DNA from: Polynucleobacter sp.
GTDB taxonomy: Bacteria; Pseudomonadota; Gammaproteobacteria; Burkholderiales; Burkholderiaceae_D
DNA: 64,000 nucleotides
Assembly: GCA_021737945.1 (NCBI GenBank)
Contig: JAIPCX010000009.1
Coordinates: forward strand, 1-64,000
Direction: 5' to 3'
The position numbers were made by a program, and so were the translations under genes. The notes under the pieces are model-generated. The model worked only from the letters and a program-made list of their open reading frames with translations. It was not told the origin of the DNA and did no database searches. Shown piece after piece: positions 7,106 to 57,872 of the stretch (the first letter of the stretch is position 1; the number at the start of each line of letters is the position of its first letter).

Positions 7106-8188
7106 ATGTCCAACGTCTACGCCCCACTAAAGAACGATACGTTTTTGCGCGCATTGCTGCGTCAACCCACCGATTACACGCCGCTCTGGCTGATGCGCCA
7201 AGCGGGCCGTTACCTGCCGGAGTATCGTGCAACCCGTGCTAAAGCAGGCTCGTTCATGGGGCTGGCCACCAATCCCGATTACGCTACCGAGGTCACCATA
7301 CAACCCCTCGATCGCTATCCATTAGATGCGGCGATTCTGTTTTCAGACATCTTGACCGTACCCGATGCTATGGGTCTGGGGCTGTCATTTGCCGAGGGCG
7401 AAGGCCCACGCTTTGCGCATCCACTGCGCGATGAAAAAGCCGTGTTGGCACTGCGCGAACCCGATCTCGCCAGTCTGCAATATGTGTTTGATGCGGTGAC
7501 GCAGATACGCAAAACGCTCGATGGTCGTGTGCCGCTGATTGGTTTTTCCGGCAGCCCATGGACACTTGCCTGCTATATGGTTGAAGGCGGTGGTTCCGAT
7601 GATTTCCGTCTGGTGAAGGGCATGTTGTACGACCGTCCCGATTTGATGCATCACATCTTGAATGTGAATGCGAAGGCCGTCGCCGCTTACCTAAATGCCC
7701 AAATTGATGCGGGCGCGCAAGCCGTGATGATCTTTGATACGTGGGGCGGTGCCTTAGCGGATGGCGTGTATCAGGCGTTTTCTTTGCATTACATGCGCGA
7801 AGTCATTAAGGGCTTAAAGCGCGAGCATGACGGACAAAAAATCCCGTGCATCGTCTTCACCAAGGGCGGCGGCTTGTGGCTAGACGAAATAGCCGACAGC
7901 GGTGCCGACGCCGTGGGCTTGGATTGGACGGTTAATCTCGCCAAGGCACGCCAGCAAGTCGGCCATAAAGTTGCGCTACAAGGTAACCTCGATCCGAATG
8001 TGCTGTTTGCCAAGCCAGAGCAAATTCACGCCGAAGTGGAAAAAGTCTTAGCGTCGTTTGGTAAACCCGGCCCCGGAACGGGCCATGTGTTCAACCTAGG
8101 CCATGGGATTTCTCAGTTCACTCCGCCGGAGGCGGTGACAGCCTTGGTTGAGGCCGTTCACGGCATCAGCCGCCGTATGCGGTCCTGA
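7106..8188 (+). CDS. hemE: Uroporphyrinogen decarboxylase
   Basis: N-terminal [24 protein letters not shown] and [19 protein letters not shown] signatures. Confidence 0.97.
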
Positions 8189-8239
8189 GCGGCGTTGCCC
8201 AAACGGCATGTGCGGTGAGCGGCGACTTCGACTAAAACC

Positions 8240-8945
8240 GTGCAGTTATGCACATTATGGTTAGACGAGTGTAAATCAAGGACTTGCGGAAAATAGACAG
8301 ACCTCGCCGTAGAAAAATTGGCTAAGTCCTTGATTTATAAATCCGCAAATGCCTTTTGGCAATATCCGATCACCGATCCCACATTACAGAAATAGCGCAG
8401 ATTTGTTAGAAACCGAGTTTGTTCACAAAGATATCCACAAGCTAGTGGATAACTTCTGATAGATCTGCTAGCCCTAATGGCTCCTCCAAACGGCATTCTG
8501 AAGGCGGAGTAAGGGCTATCTTGGTGCGCTGGTTAGTTCGGCTATCGGATTCCTTGCTGAGGTTGCGTAAACCGCACTTATTCACAAACCACGGGCTTGT
8601 CAAGGCGCTGAAAAATAAATTCAAATTATTTTTTTCTATTTAGCGTGAAATTCATAAGCCATTGATTTTATTGAGAACGCTCAGCTGCTTCCCCTCTGAG
8701 CAAAGTGTTTGAGGCCGCATGAATTCTGGCATTTGGCCTGTCAAGCCCCAGTTGTACACAAAGTTATCCACATATTTTGTGGATAGCCTAAAAAGCGCTT
8801 TCGAAATGGACAGTTAGCGCGCATTCTAAGGAATCACTTTAAGTGGTGACTTAAGTGGTGCGGGTTAAAAATTTTTCAGCAAACAAAAAAATATAAAATT
8901 TTTTGCGTCACAAATTTCTTACACACAGATCGTAAAAACTTTTTC
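8240..8945. other. Origin-like region: DnaA-box cluster plus AT-rich tract
   Basis: Exact TTATNCACA boxes at 8246-8254, 8578-8586, 8764-8772; single-mismatch boxes at 8419-8427, 8431-8439, 8444-8452(-), 8752-8760, 8778-8786(-); A/T-rich stretch ~8866-8945. Confidence 0.6.
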
Positions 8946-8952
8946 ATCTCAC

Positions 8953-11064
8953 GTGCACAACACAATTCTGCAAGTTGCTATCGACACACCACTCGATACA
9001 ACATTTGATTATCGATATCTTGCATCAACAGAAAAAACTGAACAGCCACAGGTTGGACAATTCGTGCGCGTGCCGTTTGGTAAACGTGAAGTGGCAGGTT
9101 TGATTGTTGGCGTAAACAAAACAAGCGACATTGATCCACAAAAAATGCGCGACGTAATTGAACTGCGTCATCAGATGACAGCTCTGTCATCTCACTGGAT
9201 GCAATTATGTGAATTCGCTGCGGAGTATTATCAGCGTCCGTTTGGTGAGGTCGCTTTACCTGCTGTGCCAAAAGCTCTGCGTGAGGGCAAAGTTGCGTCA
9301 ATAGAGCGTGCATTAAAAAAAATATCAGGGCTGACGAAGCCGAAAGACGAAGAGACAAAAGAAAAAAATAACGAAAAAACTAACGAAAGAACTAAAACAG
9401 CCGACGCCGCCACCGCTTCAGAAACCACACATCACGTAACGCACACACTCAACGAGCAGCAACAACACGCCGTAGATTCGATTGCCGCAACCACAGACTA
9501 TGCCTGTCATTTATTGTTTGGCATTACCGGTAGTGGCAAGACGCAAGTGTATTTGCAGGCCGCGAAAGCCTTGCTAGAAAAAACAAATGCAACTGGCCAG
9601 CGCGCGCAAATATTGATACTGGTTCCAGAAATTAATCTCACGCCTCAGTTAGAAAATCAGGTACGTGCATCGTTCCCTCGTTTGAATGTCGTTTCCATGC
9701 ATAGCCAGTTGTCAGAGGGTGAGCGACTGCGAAACTGGTTAGCCGCGCATGAAGGGCAGGCCGATATCGTCTTGGGGACGCGACTCGCTGTGTTGGCATC
9801 GATGCCGCATCTAAAACTTATCATCGTTGATGAAGAACACGATCCATCCTACAAACAGCAAGAAGGATTGCGCTATTCCGCGCGCGATCTGGCGATCTGG
9901 CGTGCGCGTCAGTTAGCGATACCTGTCGTGTTAGGTTCCGCCACGCCGTCAATAGAAAGCTGGCAGCACGCAGAGACAGGTCGTTATAAGCGACTCATAC
10001 TCAACCAACGGGCCGCAGCACTAGCCACCGTGCCCAGAGTTGGATTGATCGATATGGAGCGCGACAAAGCCGTAGAAGGTATATGTCCATCGCTACTAAA
10101 GGCATTACGTGAACGACTCGCGCGTGGCGAACAATCATTACTCTTTTTAAATCGACGAGGTTACGCACCCGTGATGCATTGCGATGCCTGTGGTTGGATC
10201 AGCAATTGCCGACGCTGTACCGCTTTCATGGTGCTACACAAACCTGAGCGTCGTTTGCGTTGCCATCACTGCAGTCTCGAGTTGCGTGTACCGCAATCGT
10301 GTCCTACGTGTGGCAATGTCGACATACAACCTTTAGGGCGTGGCACGCAACGTGTAGAAGAGCATCTGCACGCACTGTTTCCCGAAGCGCGCATCTTGCG
10401 TATCGATGCCGACTCCACACGCCGTAAAGGCAGCGCACAAGAAGCCTTTGATTCCGTGCATCGTGGTGACGTCGATATTCTGCTAGGTACTCAAATGGTC
10501 GCGAAGGGCCATGATTTTCAGCGATTAACATTAGTGGGCGTGATCAATCCCGACACCGCATTGTTTTCACAAGACTACCGCGCCAGTGAACGATTATTTG
10601 CACAGCTAATGCAAGTGGCAGGGCGCGCAGGTCGCGCTGCGAGTGGTGTGGGTAGCGTGAGCGAAGTGTTGGTACAAACGCGTTATCCTCAGCATCCGTT
10701 GTATCGCGCGTTGATGAATCAGGATTACACCGGTTTTGCGGCCAGCGTTTTAGAAGAACGCCAAAGCGCAGGCTTGCCACCTTTTGTATTTCAGGCGTTG
10801 TTGCGAGCTGAAGCCAAGACACTAGATAAAGCCTTAGAGTTTTTAACGACCGCTAAAACTTTGTTAGAGCACGAAGGCATCGTCATTAATGACCCTGTGC
10901 CGATGACTATCACACGTGTAGCAGGAGTAGAGCGCGCGCAACTATTACTCGAGTCATCATCGCGCGCCGTATTGCAAGCATTTTTAAAACCATGGATGCA
11001 AGCATTGCGTGAATCAAAATCTCGCCTGCGCTGGTCGTTAGAAGTAGACCCAGTCGATATTTAA
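8953..11064 (+). CDS. priA: Primosomal protein N' (replication restart helicase PriA)
   Basis: GTG start; Walker A FGITGSGKTQVYL, DEEHD, zinc-binding cysteines CDACGWISNCRRCTAFM...CHHCSLE. Confidence 0.97.
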   Translation: MHNTILQVAIDTPLDTTFDYRYLASTEKTEQPQVGQFVRVPFGKREVAGLIVGVNKTSDIDPQKMRDVIELRHQMTALSSHWMQLCEFAAEYYQRPFGEVALPAVPKALREGKVASIERALKKISGLTKPKDEETKEKNNEKTNERTKTADAATASETTHHVTHTLNEQQQHAVDSIAATTDYACHLLFGITGSGKTQVYLQAAKALLEKTNATGQRAQILILVPEINLTPQLENQVRASFPRLNVVSMHSQLSEGERLRNWLAAHEGQADIVLGTRLAVLASMPHLKLIIVDEEHDPSYKQQEGLRYSARDLAIWRARQLAIPVVLGSATPSIESWQHAETGRYKRLILNQRAAALATVPRVGLIDMERDKAVEGICPSLLKALRERLARGEQSLLFLNRRGYAPVMHCDACGWISNCRRCTAFMVLHKPERRLRCHHCSLELRVPQSCPTCGNVDIQPLGRGTQRVEEHLHALFPEARILRIDADSTRRKGSAQEAFDSVHRGDVDILLGTQMVAKGHDFQRLTLVGVINPDTALFSQDYRASERLFAQLMQVAGRAGRAASGVGSVSEVLVQTRYPQHPLYRALMNQDYTGFAASVLEERQSAGLPPFVFQALLRAEAKTLDKALEFLTTAKTLLEHEGIVINDPVPMTITRVAGVERAQLLLESSSRAVLQAFLKPWMQALRESKSRLRWSLEVDPVDI

Positions 11065-29930: not shown

Positions 29931-32900
29931 ATGGCTACTACATCAACGTCAATTTCGAACCTGACGCAAGCGCTAATCACCGCATTAACAACGGCTGATA
30001 TCGTGGATTTAACAGCAGTTCAGGCAGGAACTTTCTCGGCTACTCAAGCGAGTTACCTGTCAGCAACTCAGATTGCTGCATTCGAAAATGACGACATTGC
30101 GAAATTAACGCTGTCGAATCTGTCAGCCTCGCAAGTAGCTGGCATTACCAAAGATCAGTCGCCAGTCCTTTCCGCGGCTCAAGTTGCTGCGATTGGCGCA
30201 AGCGCCATCAGCGGTATGGTTACCGCAGCATTCTCAACATTGACCACCACGCAAACCGTGGCGTTGACGACAGCGCAAATCGCTGGTCTGTCCGCTACGC
30301 AAATGGGCGTGATGACGGAAGATCAACTCGGCAAAATCACTGCAGCGCAAATCGCTAGGGTTCCAGTCGCTTCATTGCAGGCAATGAGCACAGCGCAAAT
30401 CAGCTTCCTGAACACAGCATCTGTATCGGGTCTGACTACTGCGCAAGTTAAAGGTATCTACACAAACCAGATCGGTGCACTCGATACACGTATCGTCGCT
30501 GCGTTGACAACGGCGCAAATCACCGCGCTATCGAATGACAACATCGCCGCGGGTTTAAGCACAGCGCAAATCGTTTCGATGGCGGCCACGCAAATCGCTA
30601 GCTTGGCGACAGCGCAACTATCGAAATTCACTACGTTGCAAATGTTGGCGCTGGAAACAACGGACCTCAATGCGTTGACCACAGCCCAAGTAATCGCGCT
30701 GGCAACTGACCAAACGCGCGCGCTGGCAACCAACCAAGTTGCTGCGCTCAACACCAAGCAAGTCAACACGCTGGCTACCAAAAACATCTACACACTAACA
30801 ACTGATCAAGTCGCTGCATTGACTACAGTCCAGGTGCTTGGTTTGGCTACGTCACAAATAGCAGCATTTGAAACGCATCAAGTGGCGGCAATTTCCGACG
30901 CAGACATTGCTATTCTGACTACAGCTCAAGTATCTGCGTTCGAAACGAAAGACATCGCTGGTGGTTTGGTTACTAGCCAAATCGCTGCACTTTTGACTTC
31001 GCAAATCGCTGCTATGAGCACAGCGCAAGTCACTAGACTGACAACAATACAAGTTCAAACACTCGCCGCAGCCGATATCGCTGCCATGAGTACAGCCCAA
31101 GTCGCCTCGCTCGGCACCGATCACTTCGTCGCTATGACCACTGACCAAGTGGCAGCGATTACTACACTGGGTGTTGTAAATCTTCAGACAGCCGACGTTG
31201 CTGCCTTGACTACCTCTTCTATTGTTGCACTGAGCTCATCGCAAGTCGCTGTGTTGACAACCGCGGGTCTGGGTGTTTTGAGCACAGCTCAAACGGCTGC
31301 CATAGAAACACGTGATATTGCTGTTTTGAATACAGCACAAATCGCTGCACTCAGAACTTTCAACGTTTCTACGTTGACCACTGATCAATTAGTTGCACTG
31401 ACTACGTCGCAGATTTCTTCTGTTACAACAGCGGCGCTGATTTCAATTGCGACTGCAAACATTTCGGCGATTGATGCGGCAGATGTCGCAAGAATGACTA
31501 CCGCACAAATCGCGGCTTTAACTACAAACCAAGCTGCTGCTATGTCAACGGCGCAATTCGCTGCGTTGACCACAGTGCAAATTAGCAGAGTAACCACCGC
31601 TGACTTAGCTCAGTTTGGTACTGACGACGTTGCTGTTCTCGCATCGAGCCAAATCGCTAATCTGACTACAGCACAAATAACGTCAATGTCATCAACCCAA
31701 GTCAGCAATTTTGTTGATTCGGGCATTTCGTCATTGAATACACTGCAAATCGCTTCACTCGCCACGACTCAAATGTCGGGCCTGACAACGTCACAAATCG
31801 TTGCGCTGAGCACAGCGCAAGTGGCTTCAGTAAGTACGCTCAACATATCGTTGCTGCAAACCAGCCAGATCGCTTCGATTGAAACTCGCGATGTGGCTCA
31901 GTTAACGACAAGACAGATTCAAAGTTTGGGCAGTGCTCAAATCAATGTTATGTCGACCGCTCAAGTCGGTGCTCTTAAAACTGCGCAGGTAAGAGCGATC
32001 GAAACAGTTGATGTCAATGGATTCTCTACAGCCCAGATGGTGGCGTTGTCGACTGCTCAAGTCACTGCCCTGGCAACTTCGCAACTTCTGTTGTTGAACA
32101 CATTGCAGATCTCAGCAATGGAAACCCGTGATGTAGCTGCCATGGGTACAGCGCAAATTTCGCGTATCAGTTCGTTGCAGTTGTCTTCTATGACAACCGA
32201 TCAGTTGAACTCACTCAGCACTCTCAGCCTGTCAGTGCTGCAAACAGCCGCTACTTCAGGCATGACAACAGCTCAGGTTTCTGCGTTTACAACTACACAA
32301 GTTAGAGCCCTGACCACCATTCAAATCGCGACCTTTGGCTCGGCGCAATACGCTGCATTGCCAACCGCATCGTTGTCGTTGTTTGGTACAGCTCAGTTAG
32401 CAACGGTTACTACGGCAAATATCGCTGGTCTGACCACCGACCAAATCGCTGCATTGTCGGCTACACAAGTCGCCAACTTGACTACTAGTCAGTTAAATGC
32501 AATGTCCACGAGCCAGATTCGTGCGATTGAAACAGCTGACTTCACGTCATTAACAACCCGTCAAATCGCCAGCTTATCAACGGACGACGTTGTCGCCCTC
32601 AGAACTAACCAAATTAGCTTGCTCAACACCGCCCAGATCGGTCTGTTGGCAACTAATGGTATCGCAAACTTAACGACCGACCAGTTGGTAGCACTGAGCG
32701 CCACTCAGTTCGCTAATTTGGCAACCAAGCAAATCGTCACTTTGGCCTCAAACCAAGTCGCTGCGATTGAAACAGCCGATATCGGTTCGGTAACTACCGC
32801 AGGCATCTCCACCATTACAACCGCAGCTATCGTTGGTTTGACAACGGCGCAAATGGTTGCGATGACAGCAGCTCAACTCAGCGCACTCAAAACAGCTCAG

Positions 32901-35900
32901 TTCTCACTGCTAACAACGGACGATTTAGTCGCGATTGAAACAGCTGATATTTCTAGCCTGACTACAGCGCAACTGCGTACACTGGGTTCCGCTTCAGTGA
33001 GCGTATTGTCGGTTGAGCAGATCGCTAAAGTAACAACAGCGCAAGTTTCTGGCCTTACAACGGCAGCATTGCAGGGATTGACCACTGCGGGCGCATCAAC
33101 ATTGACAGCGGCGCAAGTAGGAGTAATGTCAACCGCGCAGTTCATCTACATGACCAGCGCTCAAGGTAACGCGTTGGGTACAGCGGCAATAGCTGGATTG
33201 ACTACGGCCCAAATGTCGGCTTTCTTATTAAATACAACCTCAACGATTGCTTTAGCTACGGCTCAATTTTCGTCGATTACAACAGCCAACATGGCTTTGT
33301 TCAGTACGTTGAACTTGACGAACATGACAACGGCGCCGTTGAATTCGCTGACTAATTACGGCACGAATCAGGTAGCTGCAATCAATACCTTTGCAATGTC
33401 GGCCATTAGTAGCGGTGCCATGAACACCATGACTACCGCGCAAGTGGGTACTTTATCTACAGCACAAGTTGCAGTGCTGAATACTGCAGCGATCAGCTTC
33501 GGTGTAACAACAGCCCAATTGGCATCGTTGTCTGCAACACAAGTAGCTAACTTGTCTACCGCAACTATCGCTACCCTGGCTTCGAACCAAGTTGCAGGTA
33601 TCGAAACAGCTGACATTGGTAGCTTGACTACCCGTCAACTCGCTGCGTTGACAACAGCAACAGCGCTGGGCTTGACCACAGACCAAATCGTTAACCTGAC
33701 CACGGATCAATTCGGCGCCCTCAAAACAGCGCAAATGATCGCGTTGACTACAGCACAAATCCGCGCATTAGAAACGCGTGATGTGGCTGCTTTGTCCACA
33801 GCTCAGATCGTCGCATTTAGTTCCGGTCAAATGGTGCTGGGCTTGAGTACTGCTCAACTGGGTGTGCTCTCAGCGTCGCAAATCGCAGTAATCACTACCG
33901 ACGACATCAGTGTTATGACGACTACTCAGTTCGCTGGCTTCTCGGCAGCGCAAGTGGGCTCGTTGGTAACTGCAGAAATCAACGTGATGGCTTCAGCGCA
34001 GATCGGTGCCTTGGCAACATCTGCAATCAGCAGCCTGACAACAGCAGCGATGACATTCATCTCAACTGATTCGCTCAAGGGCCTGACAACAGACCAAGTG
34101 GTCGCCTTGAATACGACGCAGATTGGTTCGATCACCACAGCGCAAGTAACCTTCCTGACCTCAGCGCAAATCGGCGCGATCGAAACAGCCGATATCGTTG
34201 GTTTGGAAACAAGAGACATCGCAGCACTCACGTCTAACCAGGTTGCTGGTCTGACCACATCGCAGTTCGTGGGCATGGCAGCAGGTCAAATCTCGGCAAT
34301 CACTACCGATGACATCAACCTATCGTTCACCACACTTCAGGTCGCAGGTTTGTCAGCTGCTCAAGTAGCTAGCTTGTCGACAGCGCAGTTTTCAGCGATG
34401 ACGTCGTCGCAGTTCCGTGCAATCGAAACAATCGACTTCTCCAGCCTGACCACAGCGCAGATCAGCACATTTAGCTCGTTCGCACTCGCTAACTTAGTTA
34501 CAGACCAGTTAAGGGTGATGACAACGGCGCAGATCGCTAGCTTGGGTACAGCAGTAGTAAGTGCATTGACTTCGGATGAAGCGGTTGCACTGTCAACGGC
34601 TCAGCTGTCGTCATTAACCACTGCACAAGTTGTTGCTATTGGTTCATATCCAATCTCGTGGTTCAACACAGCTAATATGTCTAGCCTGACTACTGCTCAA
34701 ATCGGGGTGTTGACTACACAGCAAATTAACAATCTGACCACCGAGCAAATTGCTCAGTTAAGCGCAACACAGGCAGGTGTGATTACTACTGTCCAAACCA
34801 CAGGTATTACAAGTCGTGAAGTGTCAGTAATGAACACTGCTCAGATTTCCGCGCTTACAACAGCTGCAATAAGCGCTGTGTCAAGCTACGGTATCTCGGG
34901 CATTACAACCACTCAGGTTGGTGGAATAAATACTGCTCAGATCGGCGCCTTGACCACGTATCAGTTCAGCCTTGTCAACACTGCGCAATTCGCTGCATTA
35001 GGTACCGCTCAGATGAGTGTCCTGTCGACAGCGGCTATCACAGTCATTGATTCGGTAGACTTTGCAGCCTTGTCTTCCGCGCAGATTAGTGCGCTAAGTG
35101 TTGGTGCAATCGCAGCGATGACCACACAGCAAGTGTTTGGTTTGAGTAGTGACATCATTGGCCTTACAACAGCCCAAATCGTTGCCTTAACCACTGCAGC
35201 AGCAGCTAACTTGACGACTGATCAGTTCAACCAGTTCGGTACTGCTCAAATCGCAGCATTTGAAACTCGCGATCTGATACAAATTGCCTCAGCCGCAATC
35301 ACTGTGTTGGAAAGCGTGCAGTTCGGCGTTTTGAACACTGCACAAGTGGCAATATTGACTACACAACAAGTGTTTAGCATTAGTAGTGCTGAAGTTGTTG
35401 GCTTAACAACTGATGCCATCGTAACATTGAGTACAGCGCAGTTTGCTGGCATGTCAACTAATCAGTTCTTAAGCCTGACTACTGCGCAGCTGGCCGCAAT
35501 CGAAACACGCGATTTGGTTCAAGTCCTAAGTAGCGGTATTGCTGGTTTAACTAGCTCGCAGTTGTCCGTGCTGACTACAGATCAAGTTTCGCGCTTGACG
35601 TCTATTCAAGTTTCAGCAATTGAAAGCGCTGATATAGTTGGCATGACGACAGCTCAGTTGGCATCCCTAACGACTGTTAACGTCAGTGGGATTGCAACGC
35701 AAAATATCCAGAATTTGACGACAGCTCAGATCTCTGGCTTCAGCACTACAGCCATCGCTGGAATGTTGGTGAGTCAGATTGCTGCGATCGAATCAATCGA
35801 TGCTGCCAAGTTAACTACTGACCAGTTGGTAGCATTGACTACAGCTCAGTTCTCCGCTGTTGTGTCTCAGGCTATCTATGGTTTCACAACGAATCAGATA

Positions 35901-38900
35901 ACAGCAATAGAAACACGTGATCTGGTGGTGTTGGGTTCAGAGAACGTCAACTTTATGAATAGCGTTCAGATTGCTGCATTAACGACAACACAGATTGCAA
36001 TAATGACTAGCCAGCAACTGTCAGCTATTAATAGTGATGATGTTCGCGGCTTCACTACTGATCAATTGGGTGCCTTGTTAACAACGCAAATCTACGGTCT
36101 GGCAAGTCAGAACATAGACAACTTATCTTCAGCGCAAGTGAGTGGTTTTTCAACGCTATTTATTGCTGCATTGACAACGGATCAGTTGAATGCGATTAGC
36201 TCAGAAGATATTAAGGGTCTGACAACTACGCAAATTATTGCATTGACTACGACTCAAGTTGCTGCATTGGATTCTCAGTCATTGGGCGGATTGTTAACTA
36301 ACCAGTGGGCAGCATTTGAAACCCGTGATGTTGCAGCTTTGACGTCTGATCAGTTCACCCTTGGTGCATCTTCGGTTCAGTTGGCAGCCTTGACTACCGA
36401 TCAGATAGTTGCAATGACATCCCAGCAGCTATCAGGATTGTCAGCAGTTCAAGTTTCTGGATTGACTACAAATCAAGTTTCGGCGATCGAAACTCGTGAT
36501 TTGATTTTTGGATTCGCATCTAACCAGATAACTGCATTGGGTTCAGCTCAAGTTATTGCATTAACTACTGATACTGTTAGTAGGTTTAACTCTCTGCAGC
36601 TGCAAGGTATTGACAGCATCGATCTTTCGGTAATGACAACTAACCAGATTGCAGTGCTGTCCACCGCAGCTGCGGCTTACATTACATCGGTTCAGGTTGA
36701 TGCTTTAACGACCGCGCAAGTTAGCGTACTTTCTGCAAACACTATTGATTTGTGGACTACTGCTCAAGTGTCGATGCTGGCTAGCGCTGAGATGGTTGCG
36801 CTTACTACTGCATCCATGGCCGTCTTTGATTCGTTGCAACTTCTGGCTGTTTCAAGCGATGAGATATCAGTTTTGACAACGGCGCAGATTGCTTCTATAT
36901 CAACTGCTGCAATGGCGTACATAAATTCAACCCAGGTCGACGGATTGACGACAGCACAAGTTGCTGTGTTGTCTGCAAACACTATCGATTTATTGACTTC
37001 TGCCCAGGTGTCGATGTTGACTAGTGCTGAAATGCTTGCGTTGACTACGGCACAATTGGCGGTGTTTGATTCGCTGCAACTCTTGGCTGTGACAAGCGAT
37101 GAATTGGCGGTGTTGACAACGGCTCAGATTGCTTCGATACCTACTGCAGCAATGGGTTACCTCGTATCATTCCAAGTCGATGCATTGACAACGGCACAAA
37201 TTTCCGCGCTGTCTGCGAACACAATCGACTTGTGGTCTACGCAAAACATCTCGGTTTTACTTAGCTCCGAGATGATTGCGCTGACTACAGCTCAGCTAGC
37301 GGTATTTGATTCAATGCAGCTCTTGGCTGTTACCAGCGATGAATTGGCGGTCTTGACGACTGCCCAGATCGCTTCGATATCGACTGCTGCACTGGGTTAT
37401 ATTGTCTCAACTCAGGTTGATGGATTGTCTGCAGCTCAATTAGCGGTGGTGTCGGCGAACACGATCGACTTGTGGACTTCACAAAACATTTCAGTGTTGA
37501 CAAGTACTGATATGGCTTCAATGACTACAGCTCAGTTTGCGGTATTTGATTCATTGCAACTCTTAGCTATCTCAAGTCTTACATTATCGACTTTGACCAC
37601 GGCCCAGATTGCCGCGATACCTACTGCTGCAATGGGTTACCTGACTTCAATCCAAGTCGACGGTTTAACTGCGACCCAAATTGCAGTACTGTCAGCAAAC
37701 ACAATTGACATGTTTGATTCAGTAACTATATCGATGTTGTTGAGTTCCGAAATGGTTGCTCTAACAACAGCGCAGTTAGCAGTATTTGATTCATTGCAAC
37801 TCCAGGCGGTCGCTAGTGATGAACTGACGGTCTTGACGACTGCCCAGATCGCTGCGATACCTACTGCTGCACTGGGTTATATTGTCTCAACTCAGGTTGA
37901 TGGATTGTCTGCAACTCAATTAGCGGTGGTGTCGGCGAACACGATCGACTTGTGGACTTCACAAAACATTTCAGTTTTGACAAGTACTGATATGGCTTCA
38001 ATGACTACAGCTCAGTTTGCGGTATTTGATTCATTGCAACTCTTAGCTATCTCAAGTCTTACATTATCGACTTTGACCACGGCCCAGGTTGCTGCTTTAC
38101 CGACCGCTGCAATGGGTTATCTGAGTTCTACGCAGGTTGATGGTTTAACTTCTTCGCAGGTTGCTGTCCTGTCAGCGAACACTATTGATTTGTGGACAAG
38201 TAACAATGTGTCTATGTTGACAAGTGTAGAGCTTGCTGTACTGACAACGGCTCAGATTGCAGTATTTGATTCGTTGCAGCTCCAGTCGCTGACAAGTACT
38301 GAGTTGAGCTATCTGACTACATTCCAAGTTAGTGCGTTGACTTCATCAGTCTTCCAGAACCTAACTTCTGTTACGTTAACTGGATTGGGATCAGCTCAGA
38401 TTGCTGCATTAGGTGACCAGTACGGTAACTTGTCTTCAACTGCTCTCGATTACATTTTCAGTCAACAGATCAGGGCGCTTGGATTACAAAGTGCTTTAAC
38501 TAAATGGGGCTTTGTCACTCCAGTTGTATTAGATCTGGACGGTAACGGCATCCAAACCACAACCGCTGAAAACGGCGTAACTTTCGACATCAATAACGAT
38601 GGCAAGGCTGACCAGACAGCATGGGTTGCACGTGGTGATGGCTTGCTAGTCCGTGACATCAACAAAGACGGTCAGATCAACAACGGTAGTGAGTTGTTCG
38701 GTTCGGCAACGTCCTTGGGTAAGGGTATGACAGCAGCGGATGGTTACGTAGCGATGCGTGCCTTGGATACCAATAACGATGGTGTCTTGGATGCAAACGA
38801 TGCAGCCTTCGGTGAGTTAATGGTCTGGACTGATATCGATGGTAACGGTATTACTGGTTCTAACGAGTTGACTAACTTGTCTGATCTGGGAATCAACTCG

Positions 38901-39347
38901 ATCTCCTTGAATGCGACTAAGTCGACACAGACCAACAACGGTAACTTGATTGGATTGATGGGTAGCTACACAACGACCGATGGCAAAACACATACCATGG
39001 GCGACGTGTGGTTCCAGACCGATGCAGCAGGTGATCGCGTGTTTGATCTGGCGGCCATCGCTAAAGCAGCGGGCACATCGAAGGTTGATATGTCCAACGC
39101 ACAAGCCGATACGCTGAAAGTGACTCTGGCTGATGTCTTGGCAGTGGGCACACCGGATATCCTGAGCGGCACCTCAACGGTGACCATCACGGGTGATTCG
39201 GGAGACGTGGTCCAACTGACAGGTTCGGCTGGTGCAGGATGGAGCTTGGCTGGAACGCAGACCGATGGAGCAGATACCTACATGGTCTACGTGAACCAGA
39301 ATGCTCACCTGATGGTTAACGACAAGATTCACCTGATCATTAACTAA
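29931..39347 (+). CDS. Giant (3138 aa) octapeptide-repeat T1SS exoprotein with EF-hand-like C-terminal domain
   Basis: Near-continuous LxTxQ[IV]x[AG] repeats; C-terminal DLDGNGIQTT, DINNDGKAD, DINKDGQINNGSELFG, DTNNDGVLDANDAAF, DIDGNGITGSNEL; C-terminus DTYMVYVNQNAHLMVNDKIHLIIN; followed directly by T1SS genes. Confidence 0.9.
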   Translation: MATTSTSISNLTQALITALTTADIVDLTAVQAGTFSATQASYLSATQIAAFENDDIAKLTLSNLSASQVAGITKDQSPVLSAAQVAAIGASAISGMVTAAFSTLTTTQTVALTTAQIAGLSATQMGVMTEDQLGKITAAQIARVPVASLQAMSTAQISFLNTASVSGLTTAQVKGIYTNQIGALDTRIVAALTTAQITALSNDNIAAGLSTAQIVSMAATQIASLATAQLSKFTTLQMLALETTDLNALTTAQVIALATDQTRALATNQVAALNTKQVNTLATKNIYTLTTDQVAALTTVQVLGLATSQIAAFETHQVAAISDADIAILTTAQVSAFETKDIAGGLVTSQIAALLTSQIAAMSTAQVTRLTTIQVQTLAAADIAAMSTAQVASLGTDHFVAMTTDQVAAITTLGVVNLQTADVAALTTSSIVALSSSQVAVLTTAGLGVLSTAQTAAIETRDIAVLNTAQIAALRTFNVSTLTTDQLVALTTSQISSVTTAALISIATANISAIDAADVARMTTAQIAALTTNQAAAMSTAQFAALTTVQISRVTTADLAQFGTDDVAVLASSQIANLTTAQITSMSSTQVSNFVDSGISSLNTLQIASLATTQMSGLTTSQIVALSTAQVASVSTLNISLLQTSQIASIETRDVAQLTTRQIQSLGSAQINVMSTAQVGALKTAQVRAIETVDVNGFSTAQMVALSTAQVTALATSQLLLLNTLQISAMETRDVAAMGTAQISRISSLQLSSMTTDQLNSLSTLSLSVLQTAATSGMTTAQVSAFTTTQVRALTTIQIATFGSAQYAALPTASLSLFGTAQLATVTTANIAGLTTDQIAALSATQVANLTTSQLNAMSTSQIRAIETADFTSLTTRQIASLSTDDVVALRTNQISLLNTAQIGLLATNGIANLTTDQLVALSATQFANLATKQIVTLASNQVAAIETADIGSVTTAGISTITTAAIVGLTTAQMVAMTAAQLSALKTAQFSLLTTDDLVAIETADISSLTTAQLRTLGSASVSVLSVEQIAKVTTAQVSGLTTAALQGLTTAGASTLTAAQVGVMSTAQFIYMTSAQGNALGTAAIAGLTTAQMSAFLLNTTSTIALATAQFSSITTANMALFSTLNLTNMTTAPLNSLTNYGTNQVAAINTFAMSAISSGAMNTMTTAQVGTLSTAQVAVLNTAAISFGVTTAQLASLSATQVANLSTATIATLASNQVAGIETADIGSLTTRQLAALTTATALGLTTDQIVNLTTDQFGALKTAQMIALTTAQIRALETRDVAALSTAQIVAFSSGQMVLGLSTAQLGVLSASQIAVITTDDISVMTTTQFAGFSAAQVGSLVTAEINVMASAQIGALATSAISSLTTAAMTFISTDSLKGLTTDQVVALNTTQIGSITTAQVTFLTSAQIGAIETADIVGLETRDIAALTSNQVAGLTTSQFVGMAAGQISAITTDDINLSFTTLQVAGLSAAQVASLSTAQFSAMTSSQFRAIETIDFSSLTTAQISTFSSFALANLVTDQLRVMTTAQIASLGTAVVSALTSDEAVALSTAQLSSLTTAQVVAIGSYPISWFNTANMSSLTTAQIGVLTTQQINNLTTEQIAQLSATQAGVITTVQTTGITSREVSVMNTAQISALTTAAISAVSSYGISGITTTQVGGINTAQIGALTTYQFSLVNTAQFAALGTAQMSVLSTAAITVIDSVDFAALSSAQISALSVGAIAAMTTQQVFGLSSDIIGLTTAQIVALTTAAAANLTTDQFNQFGTAQIAAFETRDLIQIASAAITVLESVQFGVLNTAQVAILTTQQVFSISSAEVVGLTTDAIVTLSTAQFAGMSTNQFLSLTTAQLAAIETRDLVQVLSSGIAGLTSSQLSVLTTDQVSRLTSIQVSAIESADIVGMTTAQLASLTTVNVSGIATQNIQNLTTAQISGFSTTAIAGMLVSQIAAIESIDAAKLTTDQLVALTTAQFSAVVSQAIYGFTTNQITAIETRDLVVLGSENVNFMNSVQIAALTTTQIAIMTSQQLSAINSDDVRGFTTDQLGALLTTQIYGLASQNIDNLSSAQVSGFSTLFIAALTTDQLNAISSEDIKGLTTTQIIALTTTQVAALDSQSLGGLLTNQWAAFETRDVAALTSDQFTLGASSVQLAALTTDQIVAMTSQQLSGLSAVQVSGLTTNQVSAIETRDLIFGFASNQITALGSAQVIALTTDTVSRFNSLQLQGIDSIDLSVMTTNQIAVLSTAAAAYITSVQVDALTTAQVSVLSANTIDLWTTAQVSMLASAEMVALTTASMAVFDSLQLLAVSSDEISVLTTAQIASISTAAMAYINSTQVDGLTTAQVAVLSANTIDLLTSAQVSMLTSAEMLALTTAQLAVFDSLQLLAVTSDELAVLTTAQIASIPTAAMGYLVSFQVDALTTAQISALSANTIDLWSTQNISVLLSSEMIALTTAQLAVFDSMQLLAVTSDELAVLTTAQIASISTAALGYIVSTQVDGLSAAQLAVVSANTIDLWTSQNISVLTSTDMASMTTAQFAVFDSLQLLAISSLTLSTLTTAQIAAIPTAAMGYLTSIQVDGLTATQIAVLSANTIDMFDSVTISMLLSSEMVALTTAQLAVFDSLQLQAVASDELTVLTTAQIAAIPTAALGYIVSTQVDGLSATQLAVVSANTIDLWTSQNISVLTSTDMASMTTAQFAVFDSLQLLAISSLTLSTLTTAQVAALPTAAMGYLSSTQVDGLTSSQVAVLSANTIDLWTSNNVSMLTSVELAVLTTAQIAVFDSLQLQSLTSTELSYLTTFQVSALTSSVFQNLTSVTLTGLGSAQIAALGDQYGNLSSTALDYIFSQQIRALGLQSALTKWGFVTPVVLDLDGNGIQTTTAENGVTFDINNDGKADQTAWVARGDGLLVRDINKDGQINNGSELFGSATSLGKGMTAADGYVAMRALDTNNDGVLDANDAAFGELMVWTDIDGNGITGSNELTNLSDLGINSISLNATKSTQTNNGNLIGLMGSYTTTDGKTHTMGDVWFQTDAAGDRVFDLAAIAKAAGTSKVDMSNAQADTLKVTLADVLAVGTPDILSGTSTVTITGDSGDVVQLTGSAGAGWSLAGTQTDGADTYMVYVNQNAHLMVNDKIHLIIN
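29960..38480 (+). repeat. Coding array of ~24-nt (8-aa) degenerate repeats, roughly 350 units
   Basis: Octad register can be read by eye through nearly the whole array, e.g. LTTDQVAA LTTVQVLG LATSQIAA FETHQVAA. Confidence 0.93.
36541..38340 (+). repeat. Higher-order tandem repeat of 240 nt (80 aa, 10 octads), about 7 units
   Basis: [GC]TNTTTGATTCNNTGCA(A/G)CT recurs exactly every 240 nt in rows 36781, 37021, 37261, 37501, 37741, 37981, 38221; protein unit LSANTIDLW...FDSLQLLAV...PTAAMGYL. Confidence 0.95.
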
Positions 39348-56462: not shown

Positions 56463-57872
56463 ATGGGACAAGTAACCGTCATTATTAACAACCGCGATTT
56501 ACTCGAATGGCCGAAACAAATGTGCGCCGACATCGAGCGCATGACCGGCCTACATGAGATCATCATCGTAGATAACGGATCGAGTAACCGCCAGCTTTTG
56601 CAATGGTACAAAGACTGCAAATACAAAGTGGTGTTTTTGGATAACCTGGGCCACACCGCGCCGTGGGATTGTGGCTTGACTGGCCGTATTGAAACGGATT
56701 TATATGTTGTGACTGATCCTGATTTGGATTTAAGTGGCGTTCCAGAAAACGCGCTTATCCACATGGCCAACATACTTTATAAAAACCCGGCCTTGGGTAA
56801 AGTGGGCTTGCTATTGGAAACCAACGGCATTCCACCTGCATCACCGTATTTTGACCATGTGAATAACTACGAAAAAAGTATCTTGTCATCTGGCACCGTA
56901 GATAACCTGTACATCAACGCACCTGTCGATACCACCTTTGCTATTTACGATCGACGCATACTGAACAAATACCAAATTTGTGGCGTTAGAACACTAGCGC
57001 CTTATATGGCAAAACACATCCCTTGGCATGTTATCGAGCCAGAAGGTGAATTTAAATATTATTTGGACAATGCCAGTAGCAAGTCATCCAGCTATAAATG
57101 GTTTACTAAGTACGAGAGCGAAGGCCCCCTCAGAAAACTCTATCGCGAGCACAAGGTTGGTAAAGTATCGTCCAAGTGGAGCTCGTACTTTCCAATCTAC
57201 GATAAATGGTTTGCTCCATACCGTGAGCAATCGATCAAGATGCTAGAGATTGGTGTGCAAAATGGCGGATCACTGGAAATGTGGGCGCGCTATTTCAAGC
57301 AGGCTGAGACCATTGTTGGCTGTGACGTTAACCCAGCGGTCGCTAATCTTGTTTATCAAGATCCACGCGTTAAAGTGGTTGTGGGTGCAGCATCCCAACA
57401 GCCAGCTTTTGATGTGATTAACGCGCACGGTGCAGGAGGATTTGATTTGATTATTGACGATGGTTCGCATCGCTCAATAGACACGATATCGAATTTCCTG
57501 ATGTTTTTCCCCATGATAAAACCAGGTGGATTATTTGTAATTGAAGATATGCACTGCGCCTACTGGCCAGAATATGAAGGCGGCTATTTTAACCAGAGAT
57601 CAATGGCAAGTTTTTTCAAAGCGATGGTTGATCTAGTTAATATCGAGCATTGTAGAAACGACTTTAGTGCGCAGCAGTTATTCCAGACGTTTTTCACGAA
57701 CACCCGTGTGCCAGACATTTTCACCAATGGCTCAATCGCAGGCGTAACGGCTTATAACTCAGTCTACGTAATAGAGAAATCCACAGAGACTTTCAAACCT
57801 TTCTGCGGTGATGTGATTATTGCGGGAGATGACTCGACGATTGAGCCGAGGGCGGTTGGTAAGTCTAGATAG
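56463..57872 (+). CDS. Fusion: GT2-like glycosyltransferase + class I SAM methyltransferase
   Basis: N-term IIIVDNGSSNRQLLQWY / DPDLDLSGVPENAL; C-term MLEIGVQNGGSLEMWARYFKQAETIVGCDVNP ... DLIIDDGSHRSIDT. Confidence 0.8.
   Translation: MGQVTVIINNRDLLEWPKQMCADIERMTGLHEIIIVDNGSSNRQLLQWYKDCKYKVVFLDNLGHTAPWDCGLTGRIETDLYVVTDPDLDLSGVPENALIHMANILYKNPALGKVGLLLETNGIPPASPYFDHVNNYEKSILSSGTVDNLYINAPVDTTFAIYDRRILNKYQICGVRTLAPYMAKHIPWHVIEPEGEFKYYLDNASSKSSSYKWFTKYESEGPLRKLYREHKVGKVSSKWSSYFPIYDKWFAPYREQSIKMLEIGVQNGGSLEMWARYFKQAETIVGCDVNPAVANLVYQDPRVKVVVGAASQQPAFDVINAHGAGGFDLIIDDGSHRSIDTISNFLMFFPMIKPGGLFVIEDMHCAYWPEYEGGYFNQRSMASFFKAMVDLVNIEHCRNDFSAQQLFQTFFTNTRVPDIFTNGSIAGVTAYNSVYVIEKSTETFKPFCGDVIIAGDDSTIEPRAVGKSR

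Follow-up and report, generated by a model that had tools for sequence, protein, structure and literature searches.

The hemE–priA intergenic region

The DNA considered here (the window) is a stretch of 64,000 nucleotides that forms the start of contig C2 in a genome of 2.97 Mb and 50 contigs (G000), whose nearest named relatives are Oxalobacteraceae metagenome genomes. The region of interest is the gap of 764 bp (8189–8952) between hemE and priA. It contains three exact DnaA boxes (TTATNCACA), and nine boxes if at most one mismatch is permitted. A first-order Markov null for the gap predicts 0.03 exact boxes, or 0.8 boxes when one mismatch is allowed; none of 2000 draws reached the observed counts. 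Nowhere else in the window does a stretch of this length approach such a box density. The number of exact boxes in the window as a whole, six, is unremarkable (shuffle mean 2.5; 4 of 100 shuffles reach 6). The following features were located:

7106–8188, plus strand: hemE, uroporphyrinogen decarboxylase (TIGR01464, 419 bits), upstream neighbour
8246–8254, plus strand: module 1, lone DnaA box TTATGCACA, exact, in the position of datA box 2
8323–8335, minus strand: module 1, perfect IHF consensus (plus-strand text TAAGTCCTTGATT), 77 bp past the lone box and 96 bp ahead of the next box
8419–8427, plus strand: module 1, DnaA box III TTGTTCACA, one mismatch, in the position of datA box 3
8431–8439, plus strand: module 1, DnaA box II ATATCCACA, one mismatch, 12 bp past box III
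8444–8452, minus strand: module 1, inverted box TTATCCACT, one mismatch, 13 bp past box II, which is the DARS spacing off by one bp
8578–8586, plus strand: module 2, lone DnaA box TTATTCACA, exact
8655–8667, minus strand: module 2, perfect IHF consensus (plus-strand text TAAGCCATTGATT), 77 bp past the lone box and 97 bp ahead of the next box
8752–8760, plus strand: module 2, DnaA box III TTGTACACA, one mismatch
8764–8772, plus strand: module 2, DnaA box II TTATCCACA, exact, 12 bp past box III
8778–8786, minus strand: module 2, inverted box I CTATCCACA, one mismatch, 14 bp past box II, completing a DARS-type I-II-III core on the minus strand
8866–8905, no strand: AT-rich run upstream of priA, kept solely in the nearest relatives
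8953–11064, plus strand: priA, primosomal protein N', GTG start (PRK05580/TIGR00595), downstream neighbour

A preliminary description of this DNA had reported three exact boxes and five one-mismatch boxes on both strands within about 540 bp. These counts are reproduced: the three exact boxes start at 8246, 8578 and 8764, all on the plus strand, and the five others at 8419(+), 8431(+), 8444(-), 8752(+) and 8778(-), within the 541 bp from 8246 to 8786. The sequence TTATCCACATATTTTGTGGATAG that it quoted lies at 8764–8786, and its AT-rich run at about 8866–8905. A sixth one-mismatch box at 8919(+) falls outside this interval. What the preliminary description missed is that the boxes belong to a module that occurs twice and includes a perfect IHF consensus site in both copies; the two copies align with 100 identities over 226 columns.

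The AT content of the final 100 bp before priA varies from 0.35 to 0.73 across the genus. The AT-rich run is not preserved beyond the nearest relatives; it therefore does not qualify as a conserved unwinding element and is more likely to be the promoter or leader of priA.

Two further observations concern other parts of the window. Two exact DnaA boxes on opposite strands, 103 bp apart, are found within a glycosyltransferase-like reading frame (56755–56866); this pair is probably due to chance. A reading frame of 3138 aa (29931–39347) is built from a short degenerate repeat (..TTAQIAALTT..) and is followed by ABC transporter and HlyD-like genes; its product resembles repeat proteins secreted by the type I route.

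Conservation and geometry of the module

An alignment of the hemE–priA gaps across relatives yields a consensus module that consists of a lone box TTATGCACA, a perfect IHF consensus YAANNNNTTGATW, and a box pair TTGTCCACA-AAG-TTATCCACA; in many copies an inverted CTATCCACA comes next. The perfect IHF 13-mer is present on the same strand in 91 of the 98 gaps, where 1.55 would be expected. Among 122 pairs from these gaps, 94 have the first box of the pair 97 or 98 bp from the IHF site, and 112 have it at 96–99 bp. The distances from the lone box to the IHF site are confined to 56–57, 66–69 and 75–79 bp, that is, to steps of one helical turn (about 10.5 bp). A scan of 2.49 Mb of other genome stretches for the composite geometry returned matches solely at hemE–priA loci.

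By a looser count, 52 gaps hold one module, 40 hold two, and three and four modules are found in one gap each. The gap of 1269 bp in G024, a genome of the same family (L033), contains four triplet cores and at least three perfect IHF sites, which suggests that the module was amplified in tandem. A box with at most two mismatches occupies the position of the inverted box I in 54% of cores, compared with 0–4% at shifted positions, and box I is degenerate or lost in many Burkholderiales lineages that keep the other elements intact. As judged by this comparison of sequences, the hemE–priA box cluster is genuine and very old.

Distribution and gene neighbourhood

Of 298 genomes of the order, 146 carry the two-box pattern TTATGCACA-N(153-183)-TTATCCACA; a reversed-pattern control matched once. 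A strict search of 370 genomes of the class for the pair plus an IHF site gave 34 positive genomes, and its control gave none. The number of copies ranges from one to four across Burkholderiales. In most Burkholderiales examined, and in 7 of the 19 gammaproteobacterial genomes with the motif, the module is located upstream of priA. One gammaproteobacterial genome (G402) carries four dispersed pair-plus-IHF copies, one of them upstream of priA. In G206 the module accompanies priA while hemE is elsewhere, in G171 and G222 it adjoins hemE with priA far away, and the genomes checked of family f25 and genus g84 have it at a long distance from priA. Because its placement varies in this way, the module is not simply part of the promoter of either gene. 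We found no description in the open-licence literature of datA or DARS in Burkholderia, Ralstonia or Burkholderiales, or of DnaA boxes at hemE–priA, and novelty is claimed provisionally.

The replication origin

The first choice of the preliminary description was that the gap is oriC, with a neighbouring hemE as in Caulobacter. The gap does share clustered DnaA boxes, IHF sites and nearby AT-rich DNA with bacterial origins and their basal unwinding system, and in two contigs of the same genus the module lies about 35–55 kb from dnaA. Nevertheless, we regard this assignment as very improbable, as it is not borne out by GC skew, by DnaA-trios, or by the existence of a structurally complete oriC candidate elsewhere. 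Cumulative GC skew, which the preliminary description had named as a check, is weak in this family and the contigs are short; wherever the minimum can be located, it is not at hemE–priA. Sampled skew was used for G118 and G232. The module of G118 lies at 336 kb, where the skew is positive to either side, the flip being at 18.1 kb, and that of G232 lies at 1.85 Mb within a mostly positive arc. Cumulative minima on contigs were used for G015, G022 and C2 itself, and lie 27–38 kb from the module. In 20-kb samples of G024, G051 and G206 the skew is too weak to place an origin by itself. A DnaA box with an adjoining DnaA-trio, the hallmark of bacterial unwinding regions (PMC8287927), is found in none of the 98 hemE–priA gaps. 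The adjacency to hemE looks coincidental, given that the module occurs with priA without hemE (G206) and with hemE without priA (G171, G222). A Caulobacter-type hemE origin was rejected on the basis of GC skew and of this independence from hemE.

The probable oriC of G000 is instead found on another contig, C48, which also carries dnaA (C48:33136). A second box cluster at C48:19265–19676, 13 kb from dnaA, has four exact boxes and seven with at most one mismatch, and contains a DnaA box, a spacer and a DnaA-trio run (TTATCCACAGAAAAGGGTCATCCTTATCTATTACTACTA) together with AT-rich DNA. Its neighbour is mmsA, encoding methylmalonate-semialdehyde dehydrogenase (TIGR01722, 681 bits), and the skew minimum of the contig (22.3 kb) is 2.6 kb from the cluster. 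An ordinary rpmH-dnaA origin was rejected, as only a single exact box is located upstream of dnaA. The same structure is found next to an apparent gene for this dehydrogenase in G015, of the same genus (C41:85863–86170), and in G024 (5.4174–5.4183 Mb, with two trio runs). The G024 site was identified by its DnaA-trios, and 130 bp separate its first box from the cumulative skew minimum of the surrounding 20-kb stretch; the skew minimum of G015 (66 kb) is also 20 kb from its mmsA cluster. In the more distant G118 the skew minimum of the first 60 kb (18,122) falls inside a DnaA-box/trio region at 17.83–18.45 kb. In all four genomes, the DnaA-trio is beside genes other than hemE and priA. Further coordinates for the probable mmsA-type oriC are L154:17371–18315.

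An origin at a distance from dnaA is also known from chromosome 1 of Cupriavidus metallidurans CH34, whose GC-skew origin is about 90 kb from dnaA and next to a DnaA-box cluster (PMC2864759). That cluster, of 213 nt, might correspond to either the mmsA-type or the hemE–priA locus, although its description is a poor fit to the Cupriavidus module (188 bp, two exact boxes).

Comparison with datA and DARS of Escherichia coli

The module was compared with the regulatory elements datA and DARS of E. coli MG1655, with datA box numbers assigned here from the published layout. In E. coli, datA gathers ATP-DnaA and promotes ATP hydrolysis after initiation (the DDAH system). It consists of box 7 (TTGTAAACA), 12 bp, box 2 (TTATCCACA), 65 bp, an IHF site (TAACCTATTGATA), 97 bp, and box 3 (TTATTCACA), with boxes 2, 3 and 7 on one strand. 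The essential boxes of datA are described as having one direction and flanking a single IHF binding site, with the spacing being important (PMC5742627, PMC10380432). Each module likewise has boxes of the same direction flanking a single IHF site (the locus as a whole having two modules) and a fixed distance from the IHF site to the following box. The order box–IHF–box, the strands and the orientation of the IHF site are the same, and both elements are located outside oriC. The IHF-to-box distance is 97 bp in E. coli and 97±1 bp in the modules; the box-to-IHF distance is 65 bp in E. coli and belongs to a 56/67/77 series in the modules, of which the 67 class is close.

There are also differences. 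An equivalent of box 7, 12 bp upstream of the lone box, is absent in every relative (at least 4 mismatches). The 12-bp pair instead takes the flank where E. coli has box 3; in E. coli the pair is formed by box 7 and box 2, across the IHF site. The module often has an inverted box I and occurs in tandem copies (two here, up to four). It is located at hemE–priA and datA of E. coli at glyVXY-queG, and no sequence aligns beyond the motifs.

The effect of DARS on DnaA is opposite to that of datA, and box I is essential to DARS. The cores of both DARS1 and DARS2 consist of box I (+), 14 bp, box II (-), 12 bp, and box III (-). Read on the other strand, the triplet of the module has identical 14 and 12 bp offsets and identical orientations, exactly so in module 2 and off by one bp in module 1. 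The head-to-head arrangement of boxes I and II is considered the hallmark of DARS (PMC10380432). The IHF site is on the box III side in the module as in DARS2, but is further from the core, with the IHF sites of DARS2 taken as the best consensus pair, 3 bp apart. Unlike in DARS1 and DARS2, box I is not universal in the modules, a further distal box that points the same way as II and III is conserved, and the locus is not near uvrB or mutH.

Proposed function and alternative explanations

We suggest that the gap comprises two tandem copies of a datA-like DnaA-regulatory element that inactivates or titrates DnaA, possibly with DARS activity in addition; we put the chance that this is right at about even. 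The preliminary description had named a DnaA-titration or reactivation site as its fallback, and the evidence is in favour of this reading. In each copy, a lone box and a head-to-tail box pair on one strand flank the IHF site. The sharp bend imposed by IHF would allow DnaA bound on both sides to meet in a loop, and the looped module would collect ATP-DnaA and stimulate hydrolysis of its ATP once initiation has taken place, as at datA of E. coli, or at least titrate DnaA. Either would prevent re-initiation. Where the inverted box I is kept, as in module 2, the triplet amounts to a DARS core and might reactivate ADP-DnaA as a second activity. Binding by DnaA and IHF, loop formation and the direction in which DnaA would be affected are predictions from anatomy. 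The genes for IHF-alpha and Hda are both encoded in G000, which makes a DnaA cycle for these sites to act in plausible.

The datA-like reading is ranked first because nearly all lineages keep same-strand boxes around a phased IHF site, which datA needs, and many lose box I, which DARS needs. Three points count against it. The match rests on geometry, with neither alignable sequence nor shared neighbours; the adjacent boxes lie on the opposite flank of the IHF site from box 7 and box 2 of E. coli; and the 12 + 14 bp triplet is the exact arrangement of DARS, whose effect on DnaA is opposite. The locus might instead be a DARS-like site in which the I-II-III triplet would catalyze ADP release and the IHF site and distal box would serve as a regulatory arm as in DARS2. 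Triplet spacing and orientations, the head-to-head boxes I and II, the side of the IHF site and the enrichment of box I at its position all speak for this possibility, which we nonetheless consider rather doubtful, as box I is degenerate in many Burkholderiales with the other elements intact and the IHF distance fits datA and not the IHF pair of DARS2 as placed by consensus.

An explanation as plain titration, with high-affinity boxes near the origin soaking up DnaA and its nucleotide state unchanged, is unlikely. It would account for a box cluster near the origin and for copy numbers from one to four, and recent experiments support DnaA titration for the chromosome of E. coli (PMC12371093), but titration alone leaves the fixed 97-bp IHF spacing and the helical phasing unexplained. 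Less probable still is that DnaA and IHF control transcription of priA and/or hemE. The frequent position upstream of priA, in Burkholderiales and in the seven gammaproteobacterial genomes, and the association with priA rather than hemE in G206 agree with promoter control; the modules that adjoin hemE at a distance from priA (G171, G222) or lie far from priA (f25, g84), the widely varying distance from module to priA, and the presence of up to four copies do not.

Implications

The locus calls for caution when origins are called from clusters of DnaA boxes: the densest cluster of the window does not mark the origin, which probably lies beside mmsA, about 13 kb from dnaA. Known examples of datA and DARS come mainly from E. 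coli and its relatives. If a motif with the same geometry works alike in Burkholderiales, and upstream of priA in some other gammaproteobacteria, DNA-encoded control of the nucleotide state of DnaA would be far older. The natural variants, with one to four copies and with or without box I, would then separate datA-like from DARS-like function. As a tentative and more far-reaching proposal, which we hold to be possible rather than likely, the module may descend from an ancient switch operated by DnaA and IHF that originally lay upstream of priA, was common to beta- and gammaproteobacteria, and was the source of datA of E. coli and perhaps of DARS. In Oxalobacteraceae this switch would have been tandemly duplicated, with the geometry of datA and the core of DARS in one element, and a single locus could then both inactivate and reactivate DnaA.
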